Positions 19,839 to 58,847 of a stretch of DNA of 64,000 nt are shown here, in pieces. Position 1 is the stretch's first letter, and every line of letters starts with the position of its first letter. The notes under the pieces were generated by a model, which had not been told where the DNA came from, searched no databases, and saw only the letters and a list, made by a program, of their open reading frames with translations. The stretch is taken from positions 4,978,382 through 5,042,381 of the forward strand of contig OV121088.1 in assembly GCA_921293015.1 (NCBI GenBank), written 5' to 3'. Source of the stretch: Phorcus lineatus (Eukaryota > Mollusca > Gastropoda > Trochida > Trochidae). A program made the translations under genes and the position numbers.

Positions 19839-20414
19839 TAAAAAACAAAAGTCTGGAAATGATTTAAATCCCCGACCGGTTTCACACTATTCAGTGATCA
19901 TCATGGGGTCTTTATGACGTTGCCATGCTATGACGTCACAGAACAAGGGGCGCATAACTCTTGACAATCGATGCGTACCCACAGATTGGTGACGTCATTA
20001 CTTTACATCAATCACATATAATAATACTAACAGCAGTTTTTAGATATGGACAAAGTTAGGTGACATTAATTGCATTTAATTGTGGCTTGAAAAGTTTAAT
20101 GAAATAATGTTCTTTCATCTTTCTCTTTTCATCACTGTTCGACATGACTTTGTAGAAGGGGAATATTTTAAAATTATTCCCGGCGCATCTTTCTATATGT
20201 TCACTCAGTGGAATGTAGCGGTAGGACGGGTCCCTGATTTGCTGCCTATGGACCCTCACTCTTGATCTAAGTGTGTCCCCCGTTTGTCCTATGTAATCTT
20301 CGCCACAACCACCGCATTTGATAACATATATTAAATTTTGTGATGCGCATGTCATGTTTTCCCGTACGCGGAATATGTGGCCACTTTTGAAGTTATATTC
20401 TTTCCCTTCTAATA
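19834..20414 (-). repeat. left inverted arm of the Penelope-like element
   Basis: Reverse complement of 21753-22333. It carries the endonuclease-encoding end on the minus strand (a 99-codon frame at 20355-20056, identical in translation to 21812-22111). It is a structural duplicate and not a separate gene. Confidence 0.92.
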
Positions 20415-20419
20415 GGTAA

Positions 20420-22111
20420 GAGGAAGATTACCTTATAAATTTTGAACATAAAGAAAGCAATTTTTATGGTTTACCCAAAATTCATAAAAGCTCTGAAATA
20501 AGAGAACAATGTAAAAACCTGTCGTCCCCATATATAAAAGTAGCACCGGTTAATGATTTAAAACTGCGACCTATCATCGCCGGGCCCGAATGTCCAACGC
20601 ATAGATTAAGTAATTTTATTGACATTCTGTTAAAACCTTTTACTAAGTATGTTAAAAGTTACATACGGGACACGACAGACTTTCTCAATAACCTCCCCCA
20701 ATCTGTAGATAGCACAACTAAATTGGTAAGTTTTGATGTAGTAAACTTGTACTCAAACATACCACATGCTCTAGGGATTAAGGCTATCCGTTTCTGGCTA
20801 CATAAACATCCTTCAGCTATACCTGAACGAGTATCTAAAGAGTTCATAATAGACAGTATACAGTTTATCTTAAATAACAACACCTTTCATTTCAATGGCG
20901 CCCATTATAAACAAATTAAAGGGACCGCTATGGGTACCAAAATGGCGCCAACTTACGCCACACTGGTCCTGGGCTATTTGGAAGAAATATTATAGTCCAA
21001 AGTTGAGCAACAATTTGGAATAGAATTCAGTACAGAATTTCAAACACAATGGAAGCGATTTTTAGATGATTGTTTCATCCTTTGGAAAAGGAGCGATACT
21101 GATTTAGAATGTCTGACAAATGAATTACAAAATTTACACCCAAGTTTGTCATTCACCAAGGAGGTAAATGATACACAGCTTCCCTTCTTAGATGTAAAAG
21201 TATCCATCTCAAATAATCTTGTTGAAACGGATGTATACTACAAACCAACTGATTCTAAACAATATTTGGATTTCAATTCATGCCATCCTCGCCATACAAA
21301 AAACAGCGTTCCGTATTCGTTAGCTAGACGAATCCGCATGATTGTTTCAAATACTGATCGTGTAGATTATAGATTGAATGAATTAAAAGATCTATTATCA
21401 AAAAGGCACTATCCGAAACAAATAATTGATGACGCTATTTTGAAAGCAAAACGGCAAAATCGTAATGATCTCCTTAAAGTTAAAGAGCAAGTACAAGAAA
21501 AGGTACTACCATTTGTATCAACATTTAATCCAAGAAACCCAGAGATATTCCCAAAACTTAAAGAAACGCTCCACCCCCTACAAAATTGTGATACCTTAAA
21601 AGATAAACTTTCACATGTACAACTTATAAAGAGTAAACGGCAAAGCCGAAATATTAAACAAATAATAAGCAAAGCTAAATTTGATCAGTCAAGCCAAATT
21701 GACAAATCAATAAGCAAGTGTGGAAGACCAAATTGTGGCACTTGCCCGTACTTATTAGAAGGGAAAGAATATAACTTCAAAAGTGGCCACATATTCCGCG
21801 TACGGGAAAACATGACATGCGCATCACAAAATTTAATATATGTTATCAAATGCGGTGGTTGTGGCGAAGATTACATAGGACAAACGGGGGACACACTTAG
21901 ATCAAGAGTGAGGGTCCATAGGCAGCAAATCAGGGACCCGTCCTACCGCTACATTCCACTGAGTGAACATATAGAAAGATGCGCCGGGAATAATTTTAAA
22001 ATATTCCCCTTCTACAAAGTCATGTCGAACAGTGATGAAAAGAGAAAGATGAAAGAACATTATTTCATTAAACTTTTCAAGCCACAATTAAATGCAATTA
22101 ATGTCACCTAA
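20420..22111 (+). pseudogene. Penelope-like RT and GIY-YIG endonuclease, 5'-truncated, one in-frame TAG
   Basis: The frame opens at the junction with the left arm and reads 564 codons if a single TAG at 20993-20995 is passed. Reverse-transcriptase landmarks in order: FYGLPKIHK, LRPIIAGPECPTHRLSN, SFDVVNLYSNIPH, then IKGTAMGTKMAP before the stop. After the stop come the catalytic FLDD (21059-21070) and LPFLDV. A cysteine motif CGRPNCGTCP (21719-21748) precedes the GIY-YIG domain, seen as YVIKC followed by DYIGQT, with the usual downstream Arg and the Glu in KEHYFIKLFKPQLN. This order is diagnostic of canonical Penelope-like elements. The missing amino terminus and the stop make it inactive as it stands; the stop could instead be a sequencing error. 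Confidence 0.9.
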
Positions 22112-26611: not shown

Positions 26612-26909
26612 ATGAAAGGATGTTACACTTTCGTTACCGTTTTGTTTTGTTTCGTTTTCAAAATATCAGGATGTTCACAGTTTGAAAGGGACATGACTTT
26701 GGATTATATTAGTGTGCTTGATTCTGAGGCAATAGACAAGGGATATACCACCATGGCCAACTGTTCCCGTTTCTGTCATGAAGATGATCTCTGTAGAACC
26801 CTCACATTTCAGCAGACAACTGGACGGTGCCGACTGTTCCCGAAGACCTTCCTGGAACCTGAGCGAAGAATAGAAGAAGCTCATAGCAGAACCTTTAGGA
26901 AAATAGATG
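26612..26909 (+). CDS. lectin paralogue 1, exon 1: signal peptide and PAN domain
   Basis: Codons 1-99 plus one base, donor G|GTAAATG. The ATG is the first codon of the hydrophobic leader (FVTVLFCFVF), and the same start is kept in paralogue 2. Reading past the donor gives only GKCIA before a stop. Confidence 0.88.
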
Positions 26910-29838
26910 GTAAATGTATAGCATGAACACATTGGCCCGAAACCTTATATAACCCCTGTTCATATATATATGTATACATAACTGTCCTATACATATATAT
27001 AGAGAGAGAAGGTGAGACTGGTTCAGCTTTATATGACTGTAACGATAGCTGGGTTTAATCTAAGAATTTATTTAAACCATATCAAAGCCAGGAACCAGTT
27101 TAATCATTTCCGACCAGTGTGCAGAACCCACCATCATATTTTTTAAACACCATATGAACCTTTTATCTTTTTTGGGTGAGACAACTGTGCATGGATGGTG
27201 CTGTATGCTTTCAACCTTTTCTATGTAAACATCTTTTAGAAGTATTTTGATTGTTTTACCATGTACCAGGTCGGAAATATTTCTTTAACGACACTATCAT
27301 GTTTTCGTTTTGAGTATATAAAGTTTCCCAGATTCGAACAAACATTTGTAGGGTATGCTATTTACAACTATGATACTAAAAAGTCGAGAACTATCTTCCC
27401 ATGACCGGAATCAGCTTTAAAGGATTAAAAAATATATATACTCAAAATACAAACTAAGCTATACAAAAATTTCATCTATCCTTGAAAATATGTCACCTTT
27501 CCTGGTACTGTAAACCTGTAATGTGAACCTGAATAAACAGGGTTTTTTTTTGCAATACGGAAAATGATATTCATGCCATTGTCACTGTGTAATTCATTTG
27601 AATCAGATGGTGCTGTGTGTGAGATGCCATCGTCTATAAGCAAGGGGAGACTACTCACAGTTGATGGGCAACAGGAAGGTTCCAGAGCCTTGTTTAACTG
27701 TGACGAGTATCACTTTCCTAATGTGGCATTCGGCGAATGTAGTGGAGGGTCATGGGTTGGCCTTGAAAATCCTTGTGCTTATAAGGTGAGTCAGTTATTT
27801 ACATCATGTACAAGTACAGCAGATGATATTCGTGAATCTATTGATTTGACACAAACATAGGATGAACAATGAATGTTTTTTTTCATTTTTGGAAAATAGG
27901 GAGGTTGCAAATCAGGAGCATTTTTATATTTACATAAGAATCATTTTCTAAAAAATAGAGAATCTCACCCTCGTGTCTTCTGATATCAAATATATCAACA
28001 CGAGGTGATAAAATTTACAAATATCCAAGGCTTGCCGAGGATATTTTTACTTTTATCAACGAGTGTTGATATATTTGATATCATAAGACAGGAGGGTGAG
28101 ATTCTATTTATCATTCAAAATCATTTTTAATTTCTATTCCGTAAACAATGTATATTTTTTAAACACTGCACTACTCTAAAACTCTCAGTGTGGTGATGCC
28201 ATAGCATTGTGACTTCGTCATGTTTATGACGTCATACTATTGTGATGTCATTACCTGATGATGAAAAACAAATGTGATGTTATGAACTTGATTGTAATAG
28301 GGCATTGTTCAAAATCTACTGTAAAATCGTTATCTCCAGATTGATCGTCCACAAGCGATATCTCCTGTGGAACACAGTTTTTGGATGATAAACACTTGTA
28401 TGTGAACCTGATATATATGATAACGTCAGACAAGGACAAACTGAACGAAGGAGGCCGTTAACGCAATGTCACCAAACTATCCTTATTGAGATATTATTAA
28501 TCAAAGATATAAAGTCCTTTTGCATGTTTTTTTATAGGCAGGCCCAAGTTACCATATCCCAGTAGAGGGTCGCATCAAACCTGGAGTTTGTGTTGTGATG
28601 ATTCTTCATCCGCCATCTTGGAGTACCAAGTATGAATATTTTTATTTTCTTACACTCTGTTTTTGATTAAATACATGGAAACATACATCTATATTGCCTT
28701 ATCATACATGATATATTTTTTACTGTCAACGTCTTAAGCTTATCAATACATTTCATTTCGTATAAAAAATCCCATTCATTCAAAATGTGCTTTAATGAAC
28801 CCCTGTTTTAAAAATAATAGTGACCAGGGCATATGAAGTGTAGTGAAGCAATGAACAAGCGCAAAAGTCATGTAACTCTATCAATATTAATGATGACAAA
28901 GAGAAATCTTTAGATGGTATACATGTACTTAAAAAATGTAATGACCGTCAGATTACCTTTATTTTTTAAATTTTACCAAAAGTATGTTATATATTACATA
29001 AACAATCATTTTAGATATAACCAAAAATATGTTATTCACAACAGTATCAATCATCTTAGATATAACCAAAAATATGTTATTCACAACAGTATCAATCATC
29101 TTAGATATAACCAAAAATATGTTATTCACAACAGTATCAATCATTTTAAGCCCTGCCCTGAGGTTGCAGAACGACAATGACGTGGCGTTTTCGTTGAGTT
29201 TCCGATTTAGCACTGAGATTGTGACCCGCAACTCCCAAGTTGGAGGCATCTGGGGATTTGAGGAGAGGGATGCCCCCTTCTGGCCTCTGGTTTTGGATCA
29301 AGTCTTCAACCTTACACTGTGCATTGAAGAGGACCTTTTTAGGGTAAGAACAAGTATAACATCAATTTAAAGGTTTCTTCGAGTTATGGACACAGATTAA
29401 AATATGTTATGATAACGTTGCATAGAGAGTCGTAAACATATTATTAAACTATTGATAAAAGTTACTGCTATAGCTTTTTAAGTAATAGTAAAGAAAATGC
29501 TCTTTAGAATGTTAAAAACGTTTTCTTTTTCAAACATCATCAGTATGATGTTATGATGAATATCGCCATGTAAGATATTATTTTCTGTTTGGTCTGTGCA
29601 TCTCATGATAGAGATGGGCCATTATCAGATAATTTTATGTATGTATATCAACATGAAGCAAGATGACGTCTTTAAAGGAACCACACATTTGTATCTAACT
29701 GAACATATTTTGTTATTACAGGCTTTTGTTGACACGGTTGAGTTATTCACCTTCAACCATCGCCTCCCGATCTCTGAGATCAATCAGCTTGAGATACGAG
29801 GAGAGTTCTATGCTCGTCGTGTAACTTTTACAGAGTAA
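26612..29838 (+). CDS. secreted PAN-sushi-galectin lectin, paralogue 1 (five exons, 292 aa)
   Basis: CDS = 26612-26909, 27607-27785, 28538-28629, 29151-29343, 29722-29838 (879 nt). Residues 1-20 are a signal peptide. Residues 21-98 form a PAN/apple domain with Cys21, 51, 55, 61 and 73. Residues 104-156 form a sushi-like module with Cys104, 131, 144 and 156 and the GECSGGSW signature. Residues 160-292 form a galectin domain. In the galectin fold Arg208, Asn217, Trp224, Glu227 and Arg229 match canonical sugar-binding positions, but His and Asn of HxNxR are Ser204 and Ser206. Possible N-glycosylation sequons: Asn50 and Asn243. Canonical galectins lack a leader, so this is an extracellular lectin of unusual build; immune or adhesive recognition is inference. 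All splice sites are GT-AG, in phase, and the structure is repeated exactly in paralogue 2. No AATAAA is seen close to the stop. Confidence 0.88.
27607..27785 (+). CDS. lectin paralogue 1, exon 2: sushi-like module
   Basis: Acceptor AATCAG, donor AAG|GTGAGT. It encodes residues 100-159, one four-cysteine module with the tryptophan of the sushi signature before the last cysteine. The module fits a single exon, as sushi domains often do. Intron 1 is 697 nt. Confidence 0.88.
27957..28395. mobile_element. foldback (hairpin) element in intron 2 of lectin paralogue 1
   Basis: The first 155 bp (27957-28111) are a hairpin: GAATCTCACCCTC...ATCAAATATATCAACAC reads back as its own complement around a centre near 28032. 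A further 280 bp includes TGACGTCA words and CAAGCGATATCTCCTGTGG. Much of it recurs in reverse orientation at 41480-41755. Intron 2 of paralogue 2 lacks it (268 nt against 752 nt), so it arrived after duplication or was lost from copy 2. Confidence 0.7.
28538..28629 (+). CDS. lectin paralogue 1, exon 3: start of galectin domain
   Basis: Acceptor TTTATAG, donor AA|GTATGA. It encodes residues 160-189 plus two bases of codon 190. PVEGRIKPGVCVVM resembles the first strands of a galectin (the usual form is xxGLxPGxxVxI). The preceding intron holds a foldback element absent from the paralogue. Confidence 0.82.
28975..29150 (+). repeat. 45-bp tandem repeat abutting exon 4 of lectin paralogue 1
   Basis: Four units starting at 28975, 29020, 29065 and 29110, the last cut to 41 bp by the exon 4 acceptor. 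Units 2-4 are nearly identical. Each carries a CAACAG and a TTAG that could act as a decoy 3' splice site. The frame of exon 4 stays open back through units 2-4. Confidence 0.9.
29151..29343 (+). CDS. lectin paralogue 1, exon 4: galectin core
   Basis: Acceptor TTTTAAG directly after a 45-bp tandem repeat, donor AGG|GTAAGA. It encodes residues 190-254 with FSLSFRF, TRNS, WGFEER and APFWPL. It holds most of the carbohydrate-binding positions, with Ser in place of His and Asn in HxNxR. Confidence 0.9.
29722..29838 (+). CDS. lectin paralogue 1, exon 5: end of galectin domain
   Basis: Acceptor TTATTACAG, stop TAA at 29836-29838. It encodes residues 255-292, including FNHRLPISEINQLEIRG, which corresponds to the FxHRxPxxxIxxLxIxG strand pair of galectins. 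Confidence 0.9.
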   Translation, partial: AFVDTVELFTFNHRLPISEINQLEIRGEFYARRVTFTE

Positions 29839-29934
29839 CTGTATCATTTCAATTGGTGTGCAACAAATTGCAGCTGGCCATGAGACGCTGTGAATGAAGA
29901 AAGTTCAATACTTGAAGATAAGAAAGTGAAGGAT

Positions 29935-31280
29935 ATTCATAAAACTATGAAGTGTTGTATGCATATAAGTATATTCATGTTTGTTTGTTTGTTTGTTTAG
30001 ATTGATAAATGTTGCAAAACAGCACAAGACAGGGATAATACAATTAGTAAATGTAATTTCCTACACCAAAATGGTGTTTCGGGCTTTCTCCCGCAATAAT
30101 TCTATAGCTAGCAGCCGCGATATAAGTAAAATACTCTTGAAACCCCATATCACCTCACCTCACCTTCTTATAAGAAAAATCAACAAGTTGCGAGGAATTA
30201 CGGTTTATATGTCCTGAGTAGAGTATGGTAATTAATTTCGAGCTTCTTCCATTTGGGAAATCACTTGTGATCGGAATATGTTTTTGTCTTTTTAATATGT
30301 TTCGTTTTTATTATAGTTTTCCCCTCTCATTATTAAAATATTTTCAGAGACTGTTGTTAATTGGGAATTCTAATTAAATTTGTCCTCGAAATTAGAATAT
30401 TGTATAATGATGTTTTATTCCCTTTTTAGCTCTCTGAGCGCTTATTGCTAGCCTATTATAAAACATTTTCTTCACTTTGGGAAATCACTTGTAAGTTTAA
30501 TCGGAAAATTTTCTGTCTTTTTAATATTTTTCATCTAATAAAACTAATTTAAACTGTGCTTCAGTCACAGTTAATCAAACTAAACATCTCTACTACTTGT
30601 TCCTTTGTTGTGCTTTTGCGAATATGTGAATTACGAAAAATCTTAATTTACTCGATCATCTTCACTGAGACTATATCCTGCTACATCAGGGTGTTTGTAT
30701 CCGCAAAGCTCTATCACGGCATTTGCCTGATGATGCTCTTTAATACAATGTGTATGACACTTGTTACAAACAGATTGCGGTAAACATTCAAGTAATCCAA
30801 AAAAATGAGTATTTGGAAAAAGTCACATGTAAAATTATTTTTCTATTTTCGTTAGTATTCTTACATGCCTCGAATATTGAAAAAAATATTGTTTATGTTC
30901 ATTTTGATAAAGTCATTCTACGGTATGTGTAATATCCCAGGAAGGAGATCAGCGTCATTTTTAGTCTCAGGATGTCCTATGTTACTGTAGTTACTGTTAC
31001 TGAGGATACTGTTTATTGCACATTGTATAAACTAAAATTTTCAAACAAACCTTACTGGCTCCTAAATACATAGAAATGTTCACATGCAACCATTAAATTG
31101 ATACAATGTTTGGACAGTGTTACTATAAGACAAATACATTGCAACTTACATCGATTTAATGATAGTTACACTAGATATTAAACTGAATGTTTACAGAGCA
31201 ATTCTTTTTCTTGGTCTGTTTAAGCGTAATTACAAAATACGAGTAAGCTGGTAACAAACTTGTTGTTAATAGAATCGTTT
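29935..31280 (+). repeat. nested, rearranged duplication downstream of lectin paralogue 1
   Basis: 29935-30240 repeats at about 31285-31560 (AACTATGAAGTG, CATGTTTGTTTG, AATTACGGTTTAT). The following 30241-31280 instead resembles DNA far downstream, about 37230-37870 (GGGAAATCACTT, TCAGTCACA, TGAATTACGAAAA), and about 49110-49330 in copy 2. This looks like a truncated extra repeat unit with an internal deletion, squeezed between the gene and its true downstream flank. Confidence 0.6.
30061..30163 (+). mobile_element. SINE fragment (3' part only)
   Basis: It contains GGTGTTTCGGGCTTTCTCCC, GCAGCCGCGATATAAGT and a CACCTCACCTCACC tail, matching the 3' third of the SINEs at 16172 and 23152, but the GCGGCGTTAAACACC block is degraded. 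The matching place in copy 2 (about 45930) lacks it, so it inserted in copy 1 only. Confidence 0.75.
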
Positions 31281-34200
31281 TGATAAAACTATGAAGTGGT
31301 GTACACATTTAAGCATATTCATGTTTGTTTGGTCGTTGAGATTAATAATGTTGCCAAACAGCAAAAGAAGCAAAAATGATATAATGTGTAAACATAGACG
31401 CAAGGAACAAGACGCAAGAATTACGGTTTATCTCTCCTGAGTCAATTATTGTGACAAAACCCGAGCTTAAGCGATGAATGTATCACAATAAGCCACAAAG
31501 GACAGATAAACCGTAAATTCGTTTCTTGCCAAGGTCATAGTTAAGACAATTTAGGAAGATACTTTCGTAAAGGTGAGTTACAAGTTAACTCGGTCATTGT
31601 CTTCATGCGCGACGAACGACAATTCAAAAGAAGTCTCAGCAAATTCTAATGTGTTTATTGATGATATATTTAGTAAGACGGTCTTATATCAACACAATCG
31701 TAAAGCAAACCACATTTAAACACTTATTGGTTCATATTATTCTAAGTCCGGTTTAAAGTTGTATGCTAAACTAACCGAACATACAATAAAAAGTAGTTAT
31801 GTTCAGAAGAACTGTAATTCCCATGACCATTATGAAGACCTTAATATCCGGCATAGATGTGCCCGCTGTTGGTTAGATTAATTAATATAAACTGCTACTA
31901 GTGGGCATAGGTTATTATTGCCAATAATCTCCTCTCTATACGGTATGCCTCTGGGATAATAATCATGAATCTTGAGCAATATATCTCTACATTATGCTGC
32001 ATGTTTATTCCTTCTCACACATATGTATCTGAGACGTCTCTTACGGCTATATCTGTTCTGTTTCTTCTAGTCAGTATTACAACATTAAATATGAACAGAC
32101 AACCTTTGCCGAAGGGCAATAATATTTTGATATATAATTATTATATTTTCTTGGATTCTCTTCCCCAACATTTTCTGTGCTATGAATTTGGGACGGTTTT
32201 TGAAACGACTATGACAAATTATATACAGTCAATCATTAGTATTAAGGCCACCCTGAGGGAATGACCAAAAATGACCTTTATATAGAGGTGGCCTTAGAGG
32301 TCCCAGTGTTATGTCATACTCAAACACAACAAACATAGATTATGATACCATAATTCAAAGAATTAGTTTAATATCAGTAGTTTCTTCGTGTATCTTTGCC
32401 TCTCTTTTCGATTATTACAAAACCTCTACCTTCCTTTTCAAAATGTTGTTAATCTGTGTTCTCCTCATGTCATATTTTTTCTGTAATATTTCGTGTACTA
32501 CTTTATCTTTTTGATTTTACAATTACATCGACTTTTTGAACAAGAGTTAATATTTTTGGATGATGAGGAGGCGTGTTTAGCGATGAAATATTACTGACCT
32601 GCATTTAGCTTTACAGAAATGATTTATATCACCACGCTTTACTTACACATAAGAATGGTCAATCTAAGTCATGACACGCCAAGTATTAGTATACTCACGC
32701 TATCGTGATATTGAGTGCGATTACAGTTCACCTCATCGCTTTGATAAGTATGATTGCAAGCTCGCTTGCGGACACTGACAACAATCACTTGGCTGTGTAT
32801 ACTGAGACGGACTTCTCGATCACGTGACCGTGCAAATTGCAAATATGTTTTTAAAGGAGTCAGTTTTGGTGAGAAAATATAATAGTGTGAAAGAGTAAAA
32901 TAGAAAAAGTATGTTTGCAAAGCAAATGTAAACAAATCTGCCACTAAGTGTGTTTATTACTTATTTGCCCTTAAAATAGGTCTATCGTAAACGTCTGCCA
33001 GTTGCTTGCAAATAAAGAGGCTATTTGTGATACACCTAGAACAGAATTGTAACATGATACTATTCCCAGGAAGTTGCCATAGATCAGGTGACCGGAAGAG
33101 ATATTTGTCTACTGAGAATATTTAGTACTTGTGCTAATACTGTAATAGTTGTTTCTGTCTGGTGACAGTTGTTTTTGAGTCTTTGGAAACATTTTCTCCT
33201 TTCATCATAGCTTTGTTTCTATTTAGTGTTGATTTAAAGATCAGACATGCAATCATCGTAGGAAATTGTGAATTACGACTTGAGATCAGCTTCATTTGAA
33301 ATCTGATAACTGTTGTCGTTATAAACTCTTACAACATGAACATAAAGCTATTGAACAGATTGAAATTGTCAATTTTTCACGTTTAGACTGACCAGTTACA
33401 TCGAACAGTATAAGGGACTTTAATTATACAAGATCCGCTCAAATCTATGTTTTATTACAAAGGAAATTGAGGTAGCGCGAACCTCATTTAGATGAAAAAA
33501 GAACATATTAGAACGTTCGACTTCTAATATATTAACCAACTATTTATATTAACCTTTTTGTTGCTGGTTCGAACTCTAGATCTACTAGATAGATATAGCG
33601 TCTGATTTTTCTCACCTTTAACAAAGACTGCATCCATACAGTATAGACAGGCAACCTTTGAATTTTATACCGTTTTATATTTGCTCAATATATCCTTTGT
33701 TGGCAGGAAATGTTTTCAAAATGAATGTAATGTATTTTGATTATGCTCATGTAGGTTTATATCTTTTATCATATGATGAAGGTACACCGGTGCAATAAAG
33801 CTATCGTATCAACTTGATATCCAAATCTGTCAAACATGCAAATTAGGTCAAAAGTCGAACTAATTTCTCGAAACTCCATTCATTTTATGTGAACCCTAAA
33901 GCGGTTACCCATCATTCATAATGTCATCGCAAGTTTACAAAGTGGTTTCCTTTCGAGTGAATATTCGTTAAACACAACACAGGAGAGGGTAGACCTACTA
34001 TGCGTTCATATTTGAAAAATACCTTGGTTATCAAGGCGGTTTAATTTTGTTTAGAAAATCACGTGTATTCTTAAATAACCTATAACATGCAGCCAATATC
34101 GGAAATCACACTTGAACTACCGTGAGCTTACGTTTTCGTGCATAAAATCGCTTTTACAGATTGTGACCAACCGATCTGTTAAAATAATATTTTAGAAAAT

Positions 34201-37200
34201 GTTCGAGTGATTACATATGTTATCAAGTATCATAATAACAAAGGAAACAATCCAAACTTCACCAATAATCTACGTTTAGTCTAAGGACACCAAGAATCAG
34301 GCCTCAGGTCACAGTAATTTTGACCCGGTAGTGGTTGTGGGAGAGGAGAAAAGGATGAAATAGTAGTGTATTGAGGGATATCATTTTCTAGGTTTGTTTA
34401 CATTGGTGACATATGTTTCTGGATTTCATTGAGAGGTAAGAACTGGTAGTTTCATCTGTAATTTTTTCTAAATTTTTTGAGTGAGTATTTTTCAATGGGT
34501 GTTGCTCATAGAATTTGCATATTTTGGGCAGTTTCATGTGCTTTTGCTGGCATGCCAGTGTATATTGACAGTTTTCATTCATATTTCAAAATCGGCCTGG
34601 TCAACACCAAGTTTAGTCTGCGTTTTTGTAGTGTCGAGAGTATGTGTTTTCACTTCAAAACAAGTCCCCCTGTCGCGCAATGTCAGGTAGCCTATCAGTG
34701 ACCCATGCAACTAATGATAAATGCACTGGAAATTAATTGTGGACTGAGGCCATCAATCGCGGAACAATCATGACAACGCAACTTGTAGTTAGAGTTACTT
34801 CCCCTGTTGCAGGGAAGTGTGCAAGTGATTTTCAGATTTTTCAGAATTATTACAGAACCATAAATCAATTACACTTTTTGTTTCTGAATTGGATATCTAT
34901 TGTGAAATATCGACTTATTTTCAAAAGTTGCGTACATAATTATGATTAAGTATTTAATGGAGGAATATTTCCTAGCAAAGTCACTTTGGTGCATTATACA
35001 TGACAATACACCGCAAAATCTAGGTCACTGCTCATAATAAGAATAAATCAGTTATGTGTTTCAAATCCTAGTTTTATAAATACAACATTAAATGAAATTT
35101 GGATTATTAACCTCGTATGTTTCCGCATCATTGGTATCATATATTAGGGATAAGATATGTGTATTATCCGAGCCTTTTCATTTTATATGGTATTGATATA
35201 ACGGAAACACACCTTGATAATAATCTATATTAATGTAACATATAACATATCGAAGTCTCAAAACTTCCCTCAGAGGGACGAAGGAAATATTTAACTAGTG
35301 ATTCACCAAGTGTGATTCATTAAATTATCGTCATGTTACCGCAGCAAGTTTATATTGATAAACCTTTTGTTGAGATTATATGCGCAGCTAGATAAATGGA
35401 CAAGCTATAATGATGCTAATGTTAATATTTTGATTGTCAAAGTCCGTTAGTAGTAATTAAGTTACAAGCATTCAAAATGGAAATGTATAAGTCAATATGT
35501 ATTTAATTTGCGAGCATGATCAAGCATGGTCAGTATATTACTTAATAAAGCTCCGTTTTATCTGGCTTCATTTCTTTATTGAAATTCATATGAAATATGG
35601 AAACTGTCATATGTACACATATGGAGTGCAGACGCCCAAAGGTAGACGCGAAATGTTTTAGTGATGGAGATAACAGTGTCCCAAATGTAAGCACAGGTTA
35701 TTGGTATAAACCAGAGGCTCATTATCCAAATACACATTAGGCTGTCATCGGCCTAAGATAGTGTCTGAGACATCGTTTATTACTATCAATTATCAAATAA
35801 TCTAGAAATAAAGCAGTATTTATTGATGAGGATGATGGTTAGGAGCATAGCATTTCAAGTACAACTGGTATCGAAGATATTCAATAAATGTTACAAACCA
35901 CTATATGAATTCAAATATACGATAATAACAACGATAATTCCTTTTAAATAGATACAAAGAGCGTCATTAACAAATTATTTAACACATTCTTTAATCTCTG
36001 TTTATGATATATTCGAAAAGGGATACACATAATTACGATGATGCTCATAAACACGTAAGCACTTCGTTGTAGCATACGATTATATTTGAGTAATATCCAG
36101 TCTCTACAATAACAACCAAAGGCTTGTAATATGCACACTAAATGAGCTAGTTTCAGACATCTTCGGTATTTTGATAGTTACTAGTTATTCTTGGGAGATA
36201 AGTGGATGCTGTGGAACAGGTGAATACTATGAGCATTTGTTATTTACACGGTTGTGGTATTGATGTCGTAATCTGCTGTCATTTCATCAATACGATGCAT
36301 CTCAGACATTTCTTTTTACGAATCTGGATGTATCGCAGTCTTTTCCCTACATTGCAGTATTATGATAAACTATATAGGCAATGCAGAACCTTTTTAAAGA
36401 CGCTTTTCACGAAAATGAATTTTTTTCTAACAATTGTTATAATAAACTAATGATTGAATGGAGTTTTGAAACAAATGTATAATGTTCAGTAAATAAATTT
36501 CCGTAACTAGAATGATTTGAAGTTCTTCACACTTAAATGATCACAACAATGTTATTCTCGATGTTTGAAACCTCATTCTACGGCCACGGATAATCGGATT
36601 GAGTGCTGACTTTTGCCTACTGAATACTTTTTGGTCAACATTTTCACAAATAAAACATCAAAAACGTCCTAGAGCACTTTAAAATGGTTCACCTTTTGTC
36701 ATTTATCAAGAAATTCACATAGGTTTAAGTTACACTTACACAAGTTGAACTCAGAAATATCTTATTTAGCCTAGTTGTTCTGATCATAACTTGAAACTGT
36801 TGATATAATATAATAATTGCATCAGTTGTGTTTTGTATTTAGTAAGCATGTGAGACGGCTGTAAATAGTCAAATGGAGCATATTGATATCCATTTTATAA
36901 ATAATATGAATATCCAATTTGTAAATTCACAATTCATTCAAAATCAGGCAAAAGTTTCCTTATGTGAGTTGATAATATCTGAATGAAAGTCGATATGATA
37001 TATGGATTATCTTTTTTTCTTCCTCAATGATTGTTGTCTTTTCATGAACTAATGCTCTCTTCTGAAGAAGAAAGAGGTATGGAATAATTCACTTTGCGTC
37101 TTTAATGATATTGTAGTATACAATTAAAGAAGACATCGATATCAAAGTATAAACGAAAACAGAGGGGAAAATCGCTTCTAAATCAACTGTAAAATTAAAT

Positions 37201-40122
37201 GTTAATTTTAAAAAGCATTTCCTTATATACGGCTGTTAATTGGATGGGATTTCTAATTCAATTTGTCTTTAAGAAATTAAAATATTGTGTAATACTGTTT
37301 TATTATCTTTTTACAGTAGCTCAAAGATTTGGGAAATCACTTATAAGTTTATTCGGAAATTGTTTCTATTTTTTTATATATATTGTTCATCTTTAATCGT
37401 AGTCTTTTTCCCTCTCATACCAAAACAGTGAAACAATTCCAGAGACGAATTCCCTTATGCAAACATAAGTTCATATTAGATTTCCAATAAACATATTTCA
37501 ACATTTTAAGCATCAACTAAAATCTTGATAGCTTTGTCTAAAATAATTAATTTCAGGGCTGAAAAAATGTCATTTTATGACTTTGCAATTCCCATATCAG
37601 TTCCTTAAGATTATTGTGAAGATCTTAATGACAGTGTAAACAAGGTGTACTGTATAAGCATGATGAAACTTAAATTTCCTAAGATAAATTCTAAAAATGC
37701 TTCAGTCACAATTCATCAGACTAATGTTTCTACTACCTGTCCCATTGTTGTGTTTTTGCAAATATATGAATTACGAAAATCATTTTACGTCATCGGCTTC
37801 AGTGCGTTTACATCCTGGTACATCAGCGTACTGTTTTCGTATTAATCAAGCAGTTCTTTGATCTCATTAGTTTATGAGATGTTTCATCAAGGTATCAAGG
37901 TATCAAGGTATCAACCTTAAAAAATTCGGGGAACTTCTTGGTCAAAGATAACAATATGTCTTCATCGAAGGTTATAAATGCAATGTGCATTTTCTGAAAT
38001 GCCAAATCAAGCAGCAAACAAGATACTGTATGCTTATGAACTTCTGGATTATGATGTCCTCATGATTGATGTTTGGTTTTTGTTGTCAAGTTGCTAAGCA
38101 ATAAAATAAATATCTAATGTCATGTTGTGAGGTTGTGTTTTTTTCTTGCATGTGTCAAGTGAATGTGAAATAGAAATGTCTGTGTTTACAGATAACGGTA
38201 AAAGCTCAAGCAATCTATAAACGATTACTTTGACAAAAGCTTTACGAAGATTATATATGGGTAATATATAAATATAATTAAAAGATATACTTTCAGTATT
38301 CTCTGTCTGTTCTTAACAACAGCATCAGTCAGGATATCCTCTTTGTAATGTTAAAGGGTTTTTCATTCTTCAATTTCCTTTTTGAGAAGGGTTATCCACA
38401 TCAGTAATCTTGATCCTGTTTTCTATTGCAAGGATTGCTTATCTCTAAAATAAAATTAATTAACCTTTCAAAAGTTCAACTCAATATGAAAATAAAGCAT
38501 AACCTGTACCATTTGCATAAACAAACTTTTGGAATTTTGCCTGACTCATTGACTTATTTAGTTACTTTACTTTCATGCTTAACAAGAAAACGAGTGGTTT
38601 GAACGTTGTCTTTTGTAGATAAAATCATTTGAAGTCGTAAAACAATCAAATGAAAACAAGTGACAATAATCGTGACATAACCTAATTAAAAAAACTAAAA
38701 CAAATTCCTGTCGTAAGACAAACTTGTAACAAATGAGTATATACTAAACATTCTTGTAATTTGTAACGAAAAAAATCTATATGAAAGTTCTGATATACCA
38801 ATTTACTACTAACTTGAGCTAAAAAAAACCATAAGGAACCAAACTAAATGAATAGGCTGGTATCACTCATGAAACATATTTTCTTCTACATTGAAGGAAG
38901 TAAGTGAAATTGATCGTCTTAGATGTTTTCACCGGAACAGTATCCTGAAAATTATTTCTTAAAAAGATGGGCAAAAGATAAGCTCTTCTGATATATATTT
39001 CAAGCGAGTTAGAAGCCTAAACAGTAGATTGTAAAAAATCAAAGCCTCTGTATGAAATTGGACAAGAGTCTTGCTTACATCGTGGATTATAAGAATATGA
39101 TACCTGCCAGTAGGCCTGTAAACACGTCACCCATGCATGTAGTCAGGAGAATACTTACAAAAAAGGTTAGTTAGAAAACCAATTTGTTGGAAGTACTGTA
39201 AGTCAGAAAATATTTGTTGGTATTTATGATTTTTGATCTATATATTTTGATATAGATTTAGGACACTGAAGGAAAATAGATCACCGAAAAATATATCAAA
39301 CTTTATAAATGATTAATCTAAAACACCACAAATATTTTATAATTAACGGTCCTTTAGAAAAATATTTTATAATTAACGGTCCTTTAGAAAAATAGGAATC
39401 TTTCTAATGGACCATCTAACAAATGGGAAGTTCACGGTTCTTCTACCGACCAACAACAGGATACACCCTCTTCTTTGTATATAAATAGTAAGGCATTGTA
39501 CTATCTAATGTATACATATTTTCCCTTTAAATTTCCTATTGATTCCCATATTTCTAGTTCACAAAACGAATATTTATCAACATACGCGCTTTCTTCAAAC
39601 CGATAACTTGTAAAATCATGTCAATAACTTCCAAAGTGAACACCATTTTCAGTTAAACAACGAACGGAACTACTTTTTAAAAATGTGTTGCAGATAAAAA
39701 AAACCCCAATCAATTTCGACTGCTGTGACAACATAACACACATGTTCATTTTATTACATAAGGGTTGTTTGTAAACATTGATCAATCTTCCGGGTCACTA
39801 GTCAGTATAGCATATACATCATTGTCAAAAGATAACCTTTTGATGCTTTTCTATGGATCTTCTCGATATTAAGCCACAACATAGTTGACTGGCGTTGGTA
39901 CCAATACCTTTAAACGAAAATAAAGACTTTTTAAAATGCATACTGTAGTATGCTGTCTGTGATTCAGTTTTCGAATGACACTTTTTCAGTTGCAGCTTTT
40001 TAAAAAAATATTTAAAGGAACTTTTGAATTGCGATAAGATTGAAGTGGAAGTGAAAGCAGAAAGAGGTAGAATGCGTTGAGTTAATTACACATGTTAGGA
40101 ACAAGAAGTTTTTAAAAGCTAA
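31281..40122. other. intergenic DNA of duplicated unit 1, no gene recognised
   Basis: About 31.3-35.9 kb aligns with 45.8-48.8 kb and about 38.1-39.5 kb with 49.0-50.0 kb, yet no reading frame is preserved between the copies. This argues against a missed conserved gene. The segment 35.9-38.1 kb is largely specific to copy 1. Confidence 0.5.
39331..39390. repeat. exact 30-bp tandem duplication
   Basis: Two identical 30-bp units (39331-39360 and 39361-39390) beginning AATATTTTATAATTAACGG. It is a simple recent slippage or duplication event. Confidence 0.9.
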
Positions 40123-41479
40123 TATAGTTTGCTGTTTTTGTCTGAGCCCTGAACCAGATGTTAAAAATTTTCTGTTAAATAAGTATTACTATAACAAGAA
40201 AACCTATTTCTCTACAGCATCACTGGCAATGGTAACAGATGCATATGGAAATGATATATATCTCATTATATGTATGAAAATTTACTATATGTATGAAAAT
40301 GTAATACTCCTTTTCGAATCCTCATATGCATGCACAAGGCACTACTATACGGAAATGCCAAATAGATTACACATATCAGAAAGGATCGTATATCACTCAT
40401 GAAAACTAAGAGCTGTAAGGAGATATATACAATGTAAATTAAACTGATGAATAATAGTATTAGAAGGATCTAATATTATGAGCAGAAAATACCTATATCT
40501 ATCTTTCTATATTTCAAGCAATAAGTCCCTCTGACCAAGCAACGACTGTTATCTATTTTTTTATCACACTTTTATCATTTGTAATTAAGAAGACAGTTGA
40601 AACTATACTGTTTAAGTCAATAAGCGATATTTGTTTAATATTTTCCAACTGCATATATATTTGATAGAAAAATGTTATTGGAAATATGAAAATTGAGTTC
40701 AAGAACAGCAAAGTTTGATTATAAAAAATATATAAGCTATTCCATCTTTCTTCCAAAACAATTCATCAACTACATTAACCAAAACTGTCTAATTCCATTG
40801 AACATGGATGTTGATGAAAGAAACGAGAATCAAAAACACTCCCCGAAATCAGTTATAGATGAAACAATCGATTGTAACCTGGCATATAGAATAATGCTAC
40901 CAATTTGTCAGCAAGTCGAGTCAATGTGAGCGCACACTACGGCTGAATACTACACCAAATAAAGTATCAATAGTAACTTATGAGAAACAGACTTCTTGAC
41001 CGTATTTAACGTGATTAACCAGATACTCGCACCTTTTATAGTACATAATGTGAGCAACACTTATGCTGCTATTGCAAGAGAATAGGAAAGGTATTTGTCA
41101 TAACATATGACACTTCTAAATTCAAGGTAAATGCTATGGGTGACATGTTGTATCAACCTCTGCATATGACAAATATTGTCAATATGTTTTAAGAAATTAA
41201 CACTTTTAAATAACATCTAAATCAATCTCTTAAATTCATGTGACAGTGATTTGATCGCTGTCGAATTTCTAGGTGTTAAATGTTGAAAGTGTATGCAATA
41301 TTTCGCAAATATTATCCTAGAAGCTCCTGAGTTTTACATAGTGACTTCATGTAAAGTCTACACGAGGAAATAATTCATAGACTGAGATCACAATACCTTC
41401 TGGTCCACCTCAATGGTAGTAACATGGTCATTTATGTGCACCATTTGTCTTAGACAATTGCTTCTGAATATTTATTTCT

Positions 41480-41755
41480 TTTTATCTTCCAAAACTGTGT
41501 TCCACAGGAGATATCGCTTGTGGAAGATCAAGCAATATCTCCTAGGAGATATCGTTTTGACAGTAGATTTTGAACAATGCCCTATTACAGTCAAGTTCAT
41601 GACATCACAATTGTTTTACATCATCAAGTAATGACATCAGAATGCTATGACGTCATAAGCATGATGACATCACAATGCTATGACATCACTCCACTGAGTG
41701 ACTGAGAGGCAAGTCTCGGATATTTGTAACTTTTATCAACTTGTGTTACCATTGA
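41480..41755. mobile_element. second foldback-family copy, 1.3 kb upstream of lectin paralogue 2
   Basis: The reverse complement of about 28180-28395 aligns through ACTGTGTTCCACAGGAGATA, the run of CATCA/TGACGTCAT words, and on into a GGCAAG...GGATATTTGTAA...TTTTATCAAC half-hairpin. One arm of the hairpin is mostly missing. Confidence 0.65.
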
Positions 41756-43020
41756 CTCTGAGATGAGAAGGACACAACACCAAAGCGCTTAAGATTTTCA
41801 AGTTTAGAAATACTTGATAAAATGAGTCTTACACTTTGATATAAAATTTACTTACAGTGTTAAATCGCCTTGGGTCTGAAGATCAGAGTCCACTTTTTTA
41901 ATCCATTCTACTAATAGATTTTACTCAGGAACTTTTTTTTAAACGATAGGAGAGTGAAATATATATTAGATAATAATTATATGAACTATTTGGTCAAACA
42001 TCTACGAATATAAACTTTGCACTTGCTTGTCCTATTTACAACTAAGTAGTCGCCTGAAGTGGAATTTATCGAAGTAAGACCTCCAATTTCAAATACGGGT
42101 ACTGAAAACCATTGACCGAAATGTGATCGATGAAGATCCCGAAGTAATTGATTTACTTTCTTCCCAAGAAGGAAGTATCTGGAAATATTGAGAAAAAGCA
42201 CTAATTATTTTTAGTGTGAAATATCTTATCTAATTTTGAGCCATTTTGTTAAACTTCAGTATCAAATGTGAAACGATATTACGACTTCAGTTCATGTATG
42301 ATATATTTTGTCTTTTCATTTGATAAATTACTCTTGAAACCTTTTCCTGTCATATTTGTTAATCAAAACATTTTTTTTCCTTGAACAGAGTTAGGAACTC
42401 CCAATACGGATCTCAGGACTGTCTGACATTTTGTCTTATCAGCACTTTTTCTTTGAAATATTTTTTCGCCAATAAACATTAGTTTAAGAAATAGGTATTA
42501 TCATTAGAGGGTCAAAACATTCCATTATTCGACCCATTCATTCCTAATGGTAAACGACTATAGTCGTATAGGTGTTAAGTTATCATAATTAAGGATTAAT
42601 TTTTTAACAAACAAGCACGTGGTTTTTGTTCCCAATGTATAGCAAAAAATATAATATTTAGACACAAAATATAATTTTCAAAATAACTTGAAAAATATCA
42701 AGGAAGCGTTTATTAATTTATTCTCTTTTAAGAACAAAACATTCATTATAAACGTTTGAAATATAAGAATTATTTTATTATTTCATGTTCAATAATGTGT
42801 ATATTATTAATTCATTATTGATAAGTAATCTATTGCTGATGTACACCCATGTGATGGCATGACAACGATAATGATAAGTTGTTATTGGCTAGCGTCTTCT
42901 AAAGAAGTATGTCAGACATTACATTTCTCATCATCTAACGTTGACGTGGTTGATATCAAGTACAGGCGAGATTGATTCTATAGAAATGAGAGTTTAATCT
43001 TTAATCAAACATGCATGTGT

Positions 43021-43030
43021 ATATATAAAA
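43021..43030 (+). promoter_or_regulatory. candidate TATA box of lectin paralogue 2
   Basis: ATATATAAAA begins 50 bp before the ATG, placing a start site a few bases to about 20 bp upstream of translation if it is used at the normal distance. The corresponding position in paralogue 1 reads ATATGTATATGAG, a much weaker match. Confidence 0.4.
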
Positions 43031-43070
43031 TACATCTTACTTACCAGATCGTATCAAGTCTAAGGCAAAC

Positions 43071-43368
43071 ATGAAAGGGTGTTACACTTATGTGATCGTG
43101 TTTTTTTGTTTCCCTTTCAATATCTCAGGATGTTCACATTTTGAAAAGGACATGACTTTAGATGATATTGGTGTGCTTCATTCTGAGGCAATAGAAAAGG
43201 GATATACCACTCTGGCCAAATGTTCCCGTTTCTGTCATGACGATGGTCTCTGTACAACATTCACATTTCAGCAGACAACTGGACACTGTCGACTGTTCCC
43301 GAAGACCTTCCTGGAACCTGAGCGAAGAACAGAAGAACGTCACAGCAGCACTTTTAGGAAAATAGATG
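43071..43368 (+). CDS. lectin paralogue 2, exon 1: signal peptide and PAN domain
   Basis: Donor G|GTAAATG as in paralogue 1. The leader VIVFFCFPF contains a proline absent from paralogue 1. PAN cysteines 21, 51, 55, 61 and 73 are retained. Confidence 0.88.
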
Positions 43369-45712
43369 GTAAATGTAAAGCTTGATCACACGGGCCACAG
43401 ACATTATATAAACCCTCAATATAGATACATGTATACATATCCATCTATACAAGATATAGAGAAGAAGAGACGTGATCATTTCAGCTCTAAATAACTGGGT
43501 CTAATCTTTGAATTTATTTAAACCATATTAAAACAAGGAACCAGTTTAATCAGAGTTCAGTGTCCACCGTCTCATTTTATCAACATCATATGAACCTTTT
43601 TTCTTTTTCTGGTCTGGCATCACTGCATGAATGTTGCTGTATGTTTTCAACCTTTTTTATGTAAAATTCTTTTAGAGGTATTTTGATACTTTGTTTTCTT
43701 TGTTTGATTATTTTACAGTGTCAGTTCGGCAATGTTTCTGTATGCACGCTGTTATGTTTTCGTTTTGTGAATATATTCAAACATAAGTGTGTAAGGTATA
43801 AGTTTTACATTAAGGGTACAAAGCAAACATGTTTCCATGAGCGGAATCAGCTTAAAATGATTTTTGAAAAGGTAAGTGACTCTCAAACTAAACAATACAA
43901 AGTTTTCATCACTGGCCCACATCTTGGTGCCATGAACATCTGATTTAAACCTGAATCGAGGTTTTTTTAACTCGGAAATACAGAAAATATTCCATATGCC
44001 ATTGTCGCTGTGTAATTCATTTGAATCAGATGATGCTGTGTGTGAGATGCCATCGTCTATAGACAAGGGGAGACTACTCGCGATTGATGGGCAACGGGAA
44101 AGTTCCAGAGCCTTCTTTAACTGTGATGAGTATCATTTTCCTGATGTGGCATACGGCGAATGTAGTGGAGGGTCATGGGTTGGCCTTGAAAATCCTTGTG
44201 TTTTTAAGGTTAGTCAGTTCTTTACTCATATACAAGTACAGCAGAAAGATATTCGTGAATCTTTTGATATTTTCATTATGAAAAGGTAATTCGAACATCA
44301 AGAGCATTTTTATATTTACATAATATTTATTTTCTATGAAAACCTCTTAGTCAAGTTAAAATAGTTTACAATGACGAACTGAACTAGAGTGGGCGAAACA
44401 CAATGTCACAAAACAATCCTTTTTGTAATATTCATTTTTAATCAAAGACATGAATTCCTTTGCACGTTTTTTATAGGCAGAGCCACGTTACCTTATACCT
44501 GTGGAGGGTCGCATCCATCCTGGAGTTTGTGTTGTCATGATACTTCATCCGCCATCTTGGAGTAACAAGTATAACTATATTTATTTTCTTACACTCTGTT
44601 TTTTATTAGATACATGGAATCATACATCTATTTTGCCTTATCACACATGATACATGCTGTCTTTTTACTGTCAACGTCTTAAGCTTATCATTTCGTATAA
44701 AATTTCTCATTCATTCAAAATGTGCTTTAAATGGACCAGGGCATTTCAAGTGAGTTAAAGTTCCATGAGCGCGTGCAAGAGTCATGTAACTCTCATCTCA
44801 TCCAAAATATTATGTAGCAATATTAATGATAATAATGAGAAAATCATTAGATGTAAGACATGTACATCTTTAGAGAAAATATAATGTCTTTGATTTTTAG
44901 ATACGACCAAAAGTATGTTATTAACTACATTATCAATCACTACAAATATGACCAAAAGTATGTTATTTACTAAATTATCAATCACTACAAATATGACCAT
45001 AAGTATGTTATTTACTAAATTATCGATCACTACAAAAATGACCAAAAGTATGTTATTCACTACAGTGTCAATCATTTTAAGCCCTGCCCTGAGGTTGCAG
45101 AATGAAAATGACGTGGCGTTTTCGTTGAGTTTCCGATTTAGCACTGAGAGTGTGATCCGCAACTCCGAAGTTGGAGGCATCTGGGGACATGAAGAAAGGG
45201 ATGTCCCCTTCTGGCCGCTGGTTTTGGATCAAGTCTTCCACCTTACACTGTGCATTGAAGAGGACCTTTTGAGGGTAAGTACAAATAAAACTGAAATGTT
45301 TCTACAAGTTAAGGACACAGTTGAAATTATGTAATGATTAGGTTGTGAAGAAAGTTTGACAAAATGTAGAGCTATAGTTTTTAAGTTAATATCAAAGAAA
45401 ATGCTCTTTTAAATGTCTTTTTTTAAAACATTATCACTATGATGTTTTGATGAATATCACCAAGGAAAAGATATTTTGTTCTATTTGTGTCTGTTTATGT
45501 ATCTAAATCAACATGAAGCAAGTCGACGTCTTTACAGGAACCACACAATTGTATCTAACTGCACTTTTTTTTATTTTTTTTTTATTTTATTACAGTGCTA
45601 TGTTGACACAGTGGAGATGTTCACCTTCAACCATCGCCTCCCGATCTCTGAGATCAATCAGCTGGAGATACGAGAAGAGTTCTATGCTCGTCGTGTAACT
45701 TTAACAGAGTAA
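43071..45712 (+). CDS. secreted PAN-sushi-galectin lectin, paralogue 2 (five exons, 292 aa)
   Basis: CDS = 43071-43368, 44030-44208, 44477-44568, 45082-45274, 45596-45712: the same five exon lengths and phases as paralogue 1. Signal peptide 1-20, PAN 21-98, sushi-like module 104-156, galectin 160-292. All PAN and sushi cysteines are conserved. The galectin core keeps Arg208, Asn217, Trp224, Glu227 and Arg229, with Ser204 and Ser206 replacing His and Asn. Differences from paralogue 1: 50 of 292 residues by hand count, 21 of them in the signal/PAN exon. It lacks the Asn50 and Asn243 sequons, has an added Cys255 and has Glu at 281 where galectins usually have Gly. AATAAA lies 86 nt past the stop. 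No stops or frameshifts, so both copies look functional. The ligand is unknown. Confidence 0.88.
44030..44208 (+). CDS. lectin paralogue 2, exon 2: sushi-like module
   Basis: Acceptor AATCAG, donor AAG|GTTAGT. The GECSGGSWVGLENPC block is unchanged from paralogue 1. Substitutions lie mainly between the first and third cysteines. Confidence 0.88.
44477..44568 (+). CDS. lectin paralogue 2, exon 3: start of galectin domain
   Basis: Acceptor TTATAG, donor AA|GTATAA. It encodes residues 160-189 plus two bases; IPVEGRI and PGVCVVMILHPPSWS match paralogue 1. Confidence 0.82.
44906..45081 (+). repeat. 45-bp tandem repeat abutting exon 4 of lectin paralogue 2
   Basis: Units start at 44906, 44951, 44996 and 45041, the last cut to 41 bp by the acceptor: the same count, period and end point as in paralogue 1. 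The units resemble one another more than they resemble those of paralogue 1, apart from the last unit. Confidence 0.9.
45082..45274 (+). CDS. lectin paralogue 2, exon 4: galectin core
   Basis: Acceptor TTTTAAG after its own 45-bp repeat array, donor AGG|GTAAGT. FSLSFRF, IRNS and WGHEER are visible. Only 8 substitutions from paralogue 1 in 64 residues, so this is among the best conserved exons. Confidence 0.9.
45596..45712 (+). CDS. lectin paralogue 2, exon 5: end of galectin domain
   Basis: A strong T-rich tract and TTACAG acceptor, stop TAA at 45710-45712. It begins Cys-Tyr where paralogue 1 has Ala-Phe and contains IREEF in place of IRGEF. Confidence 0.9.
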   Translation, partial: CYVDTVEMFTFNHRLPISEINQLEIREEFYARRVTLTE

Positions 45713-48800: not shown

Positions 48801-50433
48801 ATCATGTTGTGTCCTACTTCTTAATGGAAATTAAACAATGATTTTTACAAGGAGGAACCATTTCTGAAAGTACTTAGAAATTCCTTACTTCAAAAGATAC
48901 TAAACTCTATTCTAGGCTCCTTATATCGTTATAAAAATCTGTTTTTATAGAAAGTTATAAATGGATTCTAAAATTTGAATTTGCTCAGCAATAGCATCAA
49001 CAATTGAGGATATATTGTGATTTCTTCTTGAATATTACAAGTGATTTTGAAATAAACATGTCTGTGTTATCAACAGATTGTTGTGAAACTTCAAGTCATC
49101 TGGAAATAAGTATTTGAAAAAAGTCACATATTTAGATTACTTTTCTGTATTCTTTTATGCCTCGGATAAGGAAACAAATATTGATTACTATTATTATGAT
49201 TCAGTTATTCTTCAGTGTGTGTTAAATCAGGGAAGATATCAGCATTATGTTCAGTATTAGGATGTCTTCTGTTTATGTGTATCTGTATCTTGTTCAAGAT
49301 AAAGAGTTTCATAGTACTCTTATTTATTGCACATTGTTAATGATAAAAATCATTTACATAAACAATAGATAAAGAAGTTCAAAATATGGGGACAGTTTTT
49401 GAGCATTTGCCTTAACAAAAACATCCTACAGAACTTGTATTAATTCAAATGATCAACCATCAACAAACTTAAACGTCATTAAACCACGCTAAATATTTAG
49501 GCATGGTGTATTATTTCAAATGATATCATTTAAAATAAAAAAAAGATAAGCTCTGCTGATAGTTATTTTCAGCGAGTTAGAAGCCTACACTAGATTGTAA
49601 AAACTCAAAGCCTCTGTATGAAATTGGATAAGAGTCTTGCTTACATCGTGGTTTCTAAGAATATGATAACTGCCAGTAGACCTGAAACATACGTCACCCA
49701 TATAGTCAGGAGGATACTCAGAAAGAAGGCCTTGTTCGTCAAAAAACACATTTGGTGGAAGTACTGCAAGTCACAAAATATAATTGGTATTTATGATTGT
49801 TGATTTATAGATTTTGGTATCGATTAAGGATATTTGCAGGAAAGGAAAATAGATCAGCGAAAAACATATCGAACCTTACAAGTAACTATTCTAAATTATA
49901 AGGAGTACTTTATGACTTATTATCCTTACGAAAAATCTTACTACCCCATCTTCATTTTATAAAAGATAGTAAGACAGTGAGCTATGTAATGTGTATGGTC
50001 ATGCTTTTGATAATTCAACAATAAACAATTTAAGAAGACAAATATGTATTTCATAGGAATATAATATCATGTGCGTAATAAGTCAAACTGATAAACAAAG
50101 ATAATGTCGCAATGGCATACACGGAACAATCGTTATATTTCACACTCTTGAAACATCGTCATTGGAAAGAAAACAATTCTTGGCACTTACTTGATATGAT
50201 ACACATTTTAAAAAGGTAATTTGATGTCTGAATAAGGTTAAATTGTCGAATCGTAAGATTATAGCAGCTTAAGAAAGTTATCTATTATACATTATTATAA
50301 GTGTCCACCAGCAATATATGTCAGGCTAAGGCATATTAGGTCAGGAATTGAATTTCAACCTAGATTCCTTATCAGTGACACACCTCGATGTCCAAAGTCA
50401 TTTATCTTAGAATTCTGTTTCAGCCCAAAAGTC
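45804..50433. other. intergenic DNA of duplicated unit 2 and spacer to the meteorin-like gene
   Basis: It is colinear in pieces with copy 1, but without a shared reading frame. No RNA gene or transposon terminus was recognised. Confidence 0.5.
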
Positions 50434-50528
50434 ATGGAGAATACTCTTTTTCTATTAGGAATTCTATTCGTTGTATTTTCGACAACCATCTCACAATTCC
50501 GACAACCATGCCAAGTAATGCCAAATGG
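50434..50528 (+). CDS. meteorin-like exon 1: signal peptide
   Basis: Encodes residues 1-31 plus two bases, donor GG|GTACGTG. The ATG opens a classic leader and Cys26 follows the likely cleavage point. Confidence 0.7.

Positions 50529-58803: not shown

Positions 58804-58847
<44 letters not shown>

Follow-up and report, generated by a model that had tools for sequence, protein, structure and literature searches.

Galectins are the textbook leaderless lectins. According to one survey, lophotrochozoan galectins are generally tandem-repeat proteins and those of rotifers have no canonical signal peptide (PMC8878817), and the mollusc tandem-repeat galectin CvGal1 is described as a protein with four CRDs and no signal peptide (PMC7053492). 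Secreted galectin-domain proteins are represented by the GREPs of the VIgL group in Biomphalaria, whose definition comprises a signal peptide, at least one IgSF domain and a galectin domain (PMC10875847); these snail plasma proteins were recovered via their affinity to larval schistosome proteins (PMC5433772). A single GREP is tabulated for B. glabrata, with no entry for either B. sudanica or B. pfeifferi; in B. sudanica, seven candidates with a galectin domain came up in a first pass, and no IgSF domain was found in them (PMC10875847). GREPs are given as restricted to heterobranch gastropods (PMC8878817), and mollusc IgSF domains are noted to be difficult for standard models in some cases (PMC9334734).

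The window analyzed here is a stretch of 64,000 nucleotides from Phorcus lineatus (C13:4978382-5042381, in a 957.8-Mb assembly of 74 contigs). A preliminary description had seen in it two five-exon genes with identical exon lengths and 292-residue products, and the gene models that we rebuilt from the DNA agree with it: both copies have exons of 298, 179, 92, 193 and 117 nt, every intron is of the GT-AG type, and 242 of the 292 aa are identical between the products (83%). Both genes lie on the forward strand. In copy 1, exon 1 (26612..26909) encodes a signal-like leader and a PAN domain, exon 2 (27607..27785) a sushi-like module with four cysteines, exon 3 (28538..28629) the start of the galectin domain with the first conserved galectin cysteine, exon 4 (29151..29343) the galectin core with an altered H-x-N-x-R motif and the sequence N-L-T-L-C, and exon 5 (29722..29838) the end of the galectin domain and the stop codon. 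Copy 2 follows the same plan, with leader and PAN domain at 43071..43368, the sushi-like module at 44030..44208, the galectin start at 44477..44568, the galectin core, with the cysteine retained and the sequon gone, at 45082..45274, and the galectin end and stop codon at 45596..45712. The duplication also covers flanks and introns: between 26245/42694 and 30245/46010 the duplicated pieces lie 15.8-16.5 kb apart, and a further one at 32080/46272 has a spacing of 14.2 kb.

Intron 3 of both copies contains, just before exon 4, a 45-bp tandem array of 3.9 copies (28975-29148 and 44901-45074). The exon 4 reading frame runs open through this array (ORFs 29002-29370 and 44894-45334); an alternative, longer exon 4 is possible. 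Elsewhere in the window, exon-like ORFs at 50257-53811 perhaps belong to another secreted protein, the second of them weakly matching meteorin in PDB (E 0.2) with no Pfam hit; a Pfam scan of two neighboring ORFs gave no match. Judged by their translations, ORFs at 20056-22111 look like a reverse transcriptase with a GIY-YIG-type end behind it, the layout of Penelope-like elements. At 58058-59532 lies a large minisatellite whose units measure 30, 60 and 90 bp and which has long open stretches on both strands.

The two genes had been presented as a tandem pair. The pair is indeed intact, but this view proved too narrow, as a third copy and a genome-wide family exist. A galectin family search of the assembly returned at least 33 exon matches. 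Copy 3, also intact, lies in inverted orientation about 14 kb past the window (locus L009, C13:5056468-5060874) and has identical lengths for all five exons. Five further full-length models, one on contig C19 (L011) and four on C32 (L015, L019, L026 and L030), show the same five-exon order and encode 286-294 aa with 33-36% identity to the C13 trio, which brings the full-length models with this order to eight. At two more loci (L013 and L018) exons 1, 2 and 4 were found, while exons 3 and 5 were not located.

Which domains do these proteins contain? The galectin domain had been placed in residues 160-292, and Pfam called it there in both window proteins: Gal-bind_lectin (PF00337) matches each of them with E 8e-19 at residues 165/166-283/284, spanning Pfam positions 3/4-125/126 of 132. 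Galectins in PDB match as well (best E 5e-19), with the galectin-related protein 5it6 among the best matches (E 2.3e-13). The claim of a complete galectin fold thus stands as far as the nearly full-length Pfam domain goes, but two sugar-contact positions are altered. The galectin domain is what the proteins share with CvGal1; tandem-repeat mollusc galectins have two or four such domains per chain, whereas the window proteins and six relatives, in all of which Pfam called the domain, have a single galectin stretch each.

The PAN domain is likewise supported. PAN_1 matches copy 2 with E 8.5e-5 and 22.8 bits, over the cut-off, and copy 1 with E 2.7e-4 and 21.2 bits, 0.2 under the cut-off of 21.4; it is found in all six relatives (E 0.011 to 1.1e-6, three of the six over the cut-off), and four PAN cysteines are invariant in all eight full-length models. 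For the four-cysteine sushi module the results are mixed. A Pfam scan of both window proteins gave no Sushi match at E <= 10, and among the six relatives two show it below threshold. On the other side, in a set of 15 sushi-type exons that contains the window pair, nine match PF00084 at E <= 1 (best 1.9e-5), and all 15 share four cysteines and a Trp; the sushi cysteines are also invariant in the eight full-length models. A profile built from the 15 exons picks out complement-type modules in PDB, namely those of factor XIII B chain (E 8e-4), complement C2 (0.002) and C1s (0.025). We refer to the module as sushi-like. A hydrophobic N-terminal stretch precedes the PAN domain in 8/8 full-length models; judged by hydrophobicity only, this leader points against the canonical galectin trait of lacking a signal peptide. 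No later 19-residue segment in the eight models averages more than 1.36 on the Kyte-Doolittle scale, and no stretch after the leader has the hydrophobicity typical of a membrane anchor. Gene models, Pfam calls and relatives together support the order leader, PAN, sushi-like, galectin that the preliminary description had given.

For a count over the genome, we compiled exon sets for the three modules: 38 sushi exons out of 43 genome-search rows (five rows with E >0.01 were dropped), 42 galectin exons (33 rows of a first search plus nine new ones from the 28 rows of a second), and 23 PAN rows hand-picked near sushi clusters from the 28 and 43 rows of two separate PAN searches, with E up to 0.62. 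A same-strand galectin exon lies within 10 kb downstream of 26 of the 38 sushi exons, 19 of these pairings being firm and the other seven resting on weak galectin matches (E 0.037-0.68). A PAN exon lies within 6 kb upstream of 20/38, and 15/38 have both. Within these distances, no galectin exon was found for 12 sushi exons and no PAN exon for 18, and for 16 of the 42 galectin exons there is no upstream sushi exon.

Several loci depart from the standard arrangement. L016 (C19:21115000-21124900), one of these 16, is a relative in which the upstream PAN exon is divided between two frames and no sushi exon was detected; it is likely a broken family member. The family is represented by sushi and galectin exons at C9:52825622-52939714 and at C39:3876929-3878714 too, but two PAN queries gave no match near the C9 rows or the C39 gene; the first exon may encode another module there. 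Twelve sushi-type exons of the family are spread over C25:32613813-37584533, and galectin exon-4 matches, all weak, lie beside four of them. These appear to be divergent or decaying members. We considered a different C-terminal domain for this cluster and rejected it, given a galectin exon-3-like stretch after the sushi exon of L036 and the weak exon-4 matches beside 4/12; at L036 itself, no galectin exon 4 was found in the 5.6 kb searched downstream of the sushi exon.

In canonical galectins the sugar contacts are made by H-x-N-x-R, followed by N, W, E and R. Aligned to galectin-9, the motif reads S-L-S-F-R in copies 1 and 2 and E-V-S-F-R in copy 3. The canonical set is thus incomplete in the window pair, with Ser in place of both His and Asn, but the pair retains the motif Arg as well as all four of the residues that follow it (Asn, Trp, Glu, Arg). 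In the exons of 16 relatives, His is kept in 12, Arg in 12 and Asn in none; of seven distinct galectin exons on contig C7, five keep HFNPR. With both His and Asn replaced by Ser, ordinary beta-galactoside binding by the window pair appears doubtful from the sequence.

A rival proposal is that the galectin domain no longer binds sugar and serves as a structural or protein-binding part of the extracellular matrix, the mucus or the shell matrix. Besides the two replaced residues and the Asn, which none of the 16 relatives keeps, it draws on galectin-13, which has Arg in place of His and is reported not to bind beta-galactosides (PMC5772480), and on the galectin-related protein 5it6, which stands among the best PDB matches; both combine the galectin fold with a changed sugar-contact position, as here. 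The retained Arg, Asn, Trp, Glu and Arg and the His kept in 12/16 relatives speak against it, and so does the first domain of 4hl0, which reads H-I-S-V-R in the PDB alignment. The 4hl0 protein presumably binds lactose, so losing the Asn by itself does not have to prevent binding. To our knowledge, neither galectin-13 nor the galectin-related protein has a leader or extra modules, both of which precede the domain here. We consider this proposal rather unlikely, and favor an extracellular recognition protein whose ligand is probably something other than simple beta-galactose.

A passage through the ER, as had been claimed, is supported by the leader and by a signature in the galectin core. N-x-S/T-x-C, in the form N-x-T-x-C, combines a sequon with a cysteine and occurs in 16/16 family loci (the fetched loci outside the window labeled as family, copy 3 included) compared with 0/11 other galectin rows, where the rows compared are those that a profile of family and window exons matched at E <= 0.01 in fetched loci; as the profile was built from family exons, the 11 comprise just the rows similar enough to be matched, and one exon is counted twice among them because it lies in two overlapping loci. 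Such a signature is as expected of an ER-routed protein, and secretion is probable. Of the window pair, copy 1 carries N-L-T-L-C; in copy 2 the cysteine is still there, the Asn is replaced by His, and an additional cysteine has been gained. Two galectin cysteines, one in a G-x-C of exon 3 and the sequon cysteine of exon 4, are invariant in 8/8 models and lie, in a by-eye alignment, at or near Cys16/Cys88 of galectin-1 and Cys19/Cys92 of galectin-13, the second cysteine here seemingly shifted by about two residues. A disulfide may join this Cys177-Cys247 pair. For comparison, the galectin-13 pair is described as near enough to bond, yet the bond was not seen, and disulfides of galectin-1 as accompanying a loss of activity (PMC5772480).

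The coding sequences of the C13 trio align without any indel (879 coding bases between copies 1 and 2), whereas aligning the introns of copies 1 and 2 opens 6-10 gap runs per intron, at 66-83% identity. For the whole protein, copies 1 and 2 have a dN/dS of 0.53 (bootstrap 0.34-0.84, reaching 1 in 1/300), and the pairs with copy 3 have 0.29 and 0.35 (0/300 each). The modules differ: over the three pairs, dN/dS is 0.43, 0.20 and 0.23 in the galectin domain and 0.75, 0.97 and 1.22, i.e. near 1, in the PAN domain; in the sushi-like module it is 1.01 for copies 1 and 2 and 0.23 and 0.27 for the other pairs. With PAN near 1 and sushi at 1.01, the case for constraint applies to the protein as a whole and to its galectin domain more than to each single module.

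These values bear on two further explanations. The window copies could be relics heading for loss, given that copy 2 lacks the family sequon and has an additional cysteine and that the relative at L016 has a disrupted PAN exon. Neither copy has a stop, a frameshift or a lost splice site, and with intact reading frames and dN/dS bootstraps below 1 in nearly all replicates we rejected this very improbable reading. Tandem, fast-changing families of secreted proteins commonly end up in reproductive recognition, and the tandem clusters and the PAN dN/dS would suit gamete- or reproduction-related recognition proteins, but whole-protein dN/dS is below 1 in all three C13 pairs; we regard such a role as clearly unlikely.

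A stretch of exon 1 is unusually alike in all three C13 copies (26640..26909 on the forward strand in copy 1, bounds approximate). Between copies 1 and 3, 17/232 bases differ in the PAN part of exon 1 and 117/578 in exons 2-5 (Fisher p 3e-6); the corresponding counts are 24/232 and 124/578 for copies 2 and 3 (p 2e-4) and 24/232 and 51/578 for copies 1 and 2 (p 0.5). Synonymous distance to copy 3 is 0.08-0.09 in the PAN domain and 0.58-0.73 in the sushi-like and galectin parts, and the likeness drops off within the leader and just beyond the exon end. Weaker results came from four-fold sites, with 2/26 differences in PAN and 19/59 in the rest between copies 1 and 3 (p 0.016) and 3/26 and 16/59 between copies 2 and 3 (p 0.16), and from the longest identical run, whose length 90 and 74 out of 2000 shuffles attained by chance. 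The likeliest cause, as judged from these sequence comparisons, is gene conversion of exon 1 between the inverted copies; constraint on silent sites is less likely.

Taken together, the products of this gene family are probably extracellular recognition proteins whose sugar-binding site is altered. Our main reading, to which we give a probability of about 0.5, is that they are soluble, ER-routed extracellular proteins with a galectin domain behind PAN and sushi-like modules, which bind a ligand that is probably not simple beta-galactose and act in recognition, most likely in defense. For this reading we count the gene models, the Pfam calls of galectin and PAN_1, the sushi-like exons, the eight models of the same order, whole-protein dN/dS below 1, the invariant cysteines, the N-x-T-x-C in all 16 loci, the leader without a later anchor-like stretch and the 26 sushi-galectin pairings. 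Counted against it are the Sushi domain that Pfam does not call in the window proteins, the sequon lost in copy 2, the PAN dN/dS near 1, and the sushi exons for which no galectin (12/38) or PAN exon (18/38) was found. The N-terminal signal peptide would direct the protein into the ER, where disulfides, and in copy 1 an N-glycan, would be gained. The PAN and sushi-like front modules might then dock the protein, bind partners or build oligomers, and the galectin-type domain would recognize the ligand. Duplication has produced a family whose galectin domains diverge, which is what one would expect if the proteins are secreted and act in recognition. Secretion, disulfide pairing, docking and ligand recognition, like the role in immunity or adhesion put forward in the preliminary description, are what we infer; defense is our best guess, drawn by analogy to GREPs.

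For the PAN-sushi-galectin order, no named family turned up in the literature searched, but secreted galectin-domain proteins have a precedent in the snail GREPs, which share with them a signal peptide, N-terminal extracellular modules and a C-terminal galectin domain (PMC10875847, PMC5433772). Unlike GREPs, which contain IgSF domains, the proteins described here carry PAN and sushi-like modules, and Pfam scans gave no match to any Ig family in the window proteins (E <= 10) or the six relatives (E <= 1). Moreover, one GREP is tabulated for B. glabrata (PMC10875847), whereas many family exons occur here in one genome. Membership in the GREPs was rejected, as no Ig domain was found and PAN and sushi-like modules account for the protein front; as the definition requires IgSF, the window proteins are not GREPs, though they may work alike. 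GREPs are the closest named relative, and the PAN-sushi-galectin genes are a parallel build. Among the literature matches listed, none was recognized from its title or abstract as describing galectin, PAN and sushi domains in this order, and such proteins may exist unnamed in eukaryotic databases.

It is possible, and we put it forward tentatively, that the genes form an unnamed, expanded lineage of ER-routed galectins, in which disulfides and N-glycans were gained, the PAN exon of the C13 copies was homogenized by exon-limited conversion and the galectin domain is diverging, a repertoire parallel to FREP/CREP/GREP. If true, an ER-routed galectin family would show a cytosolic fold remade for the outside. 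It would also be a second case, beside the GREPs, of galectins in multi-module secreted proteins, and would provide a candidate recognition repertoire in an invertebrate.
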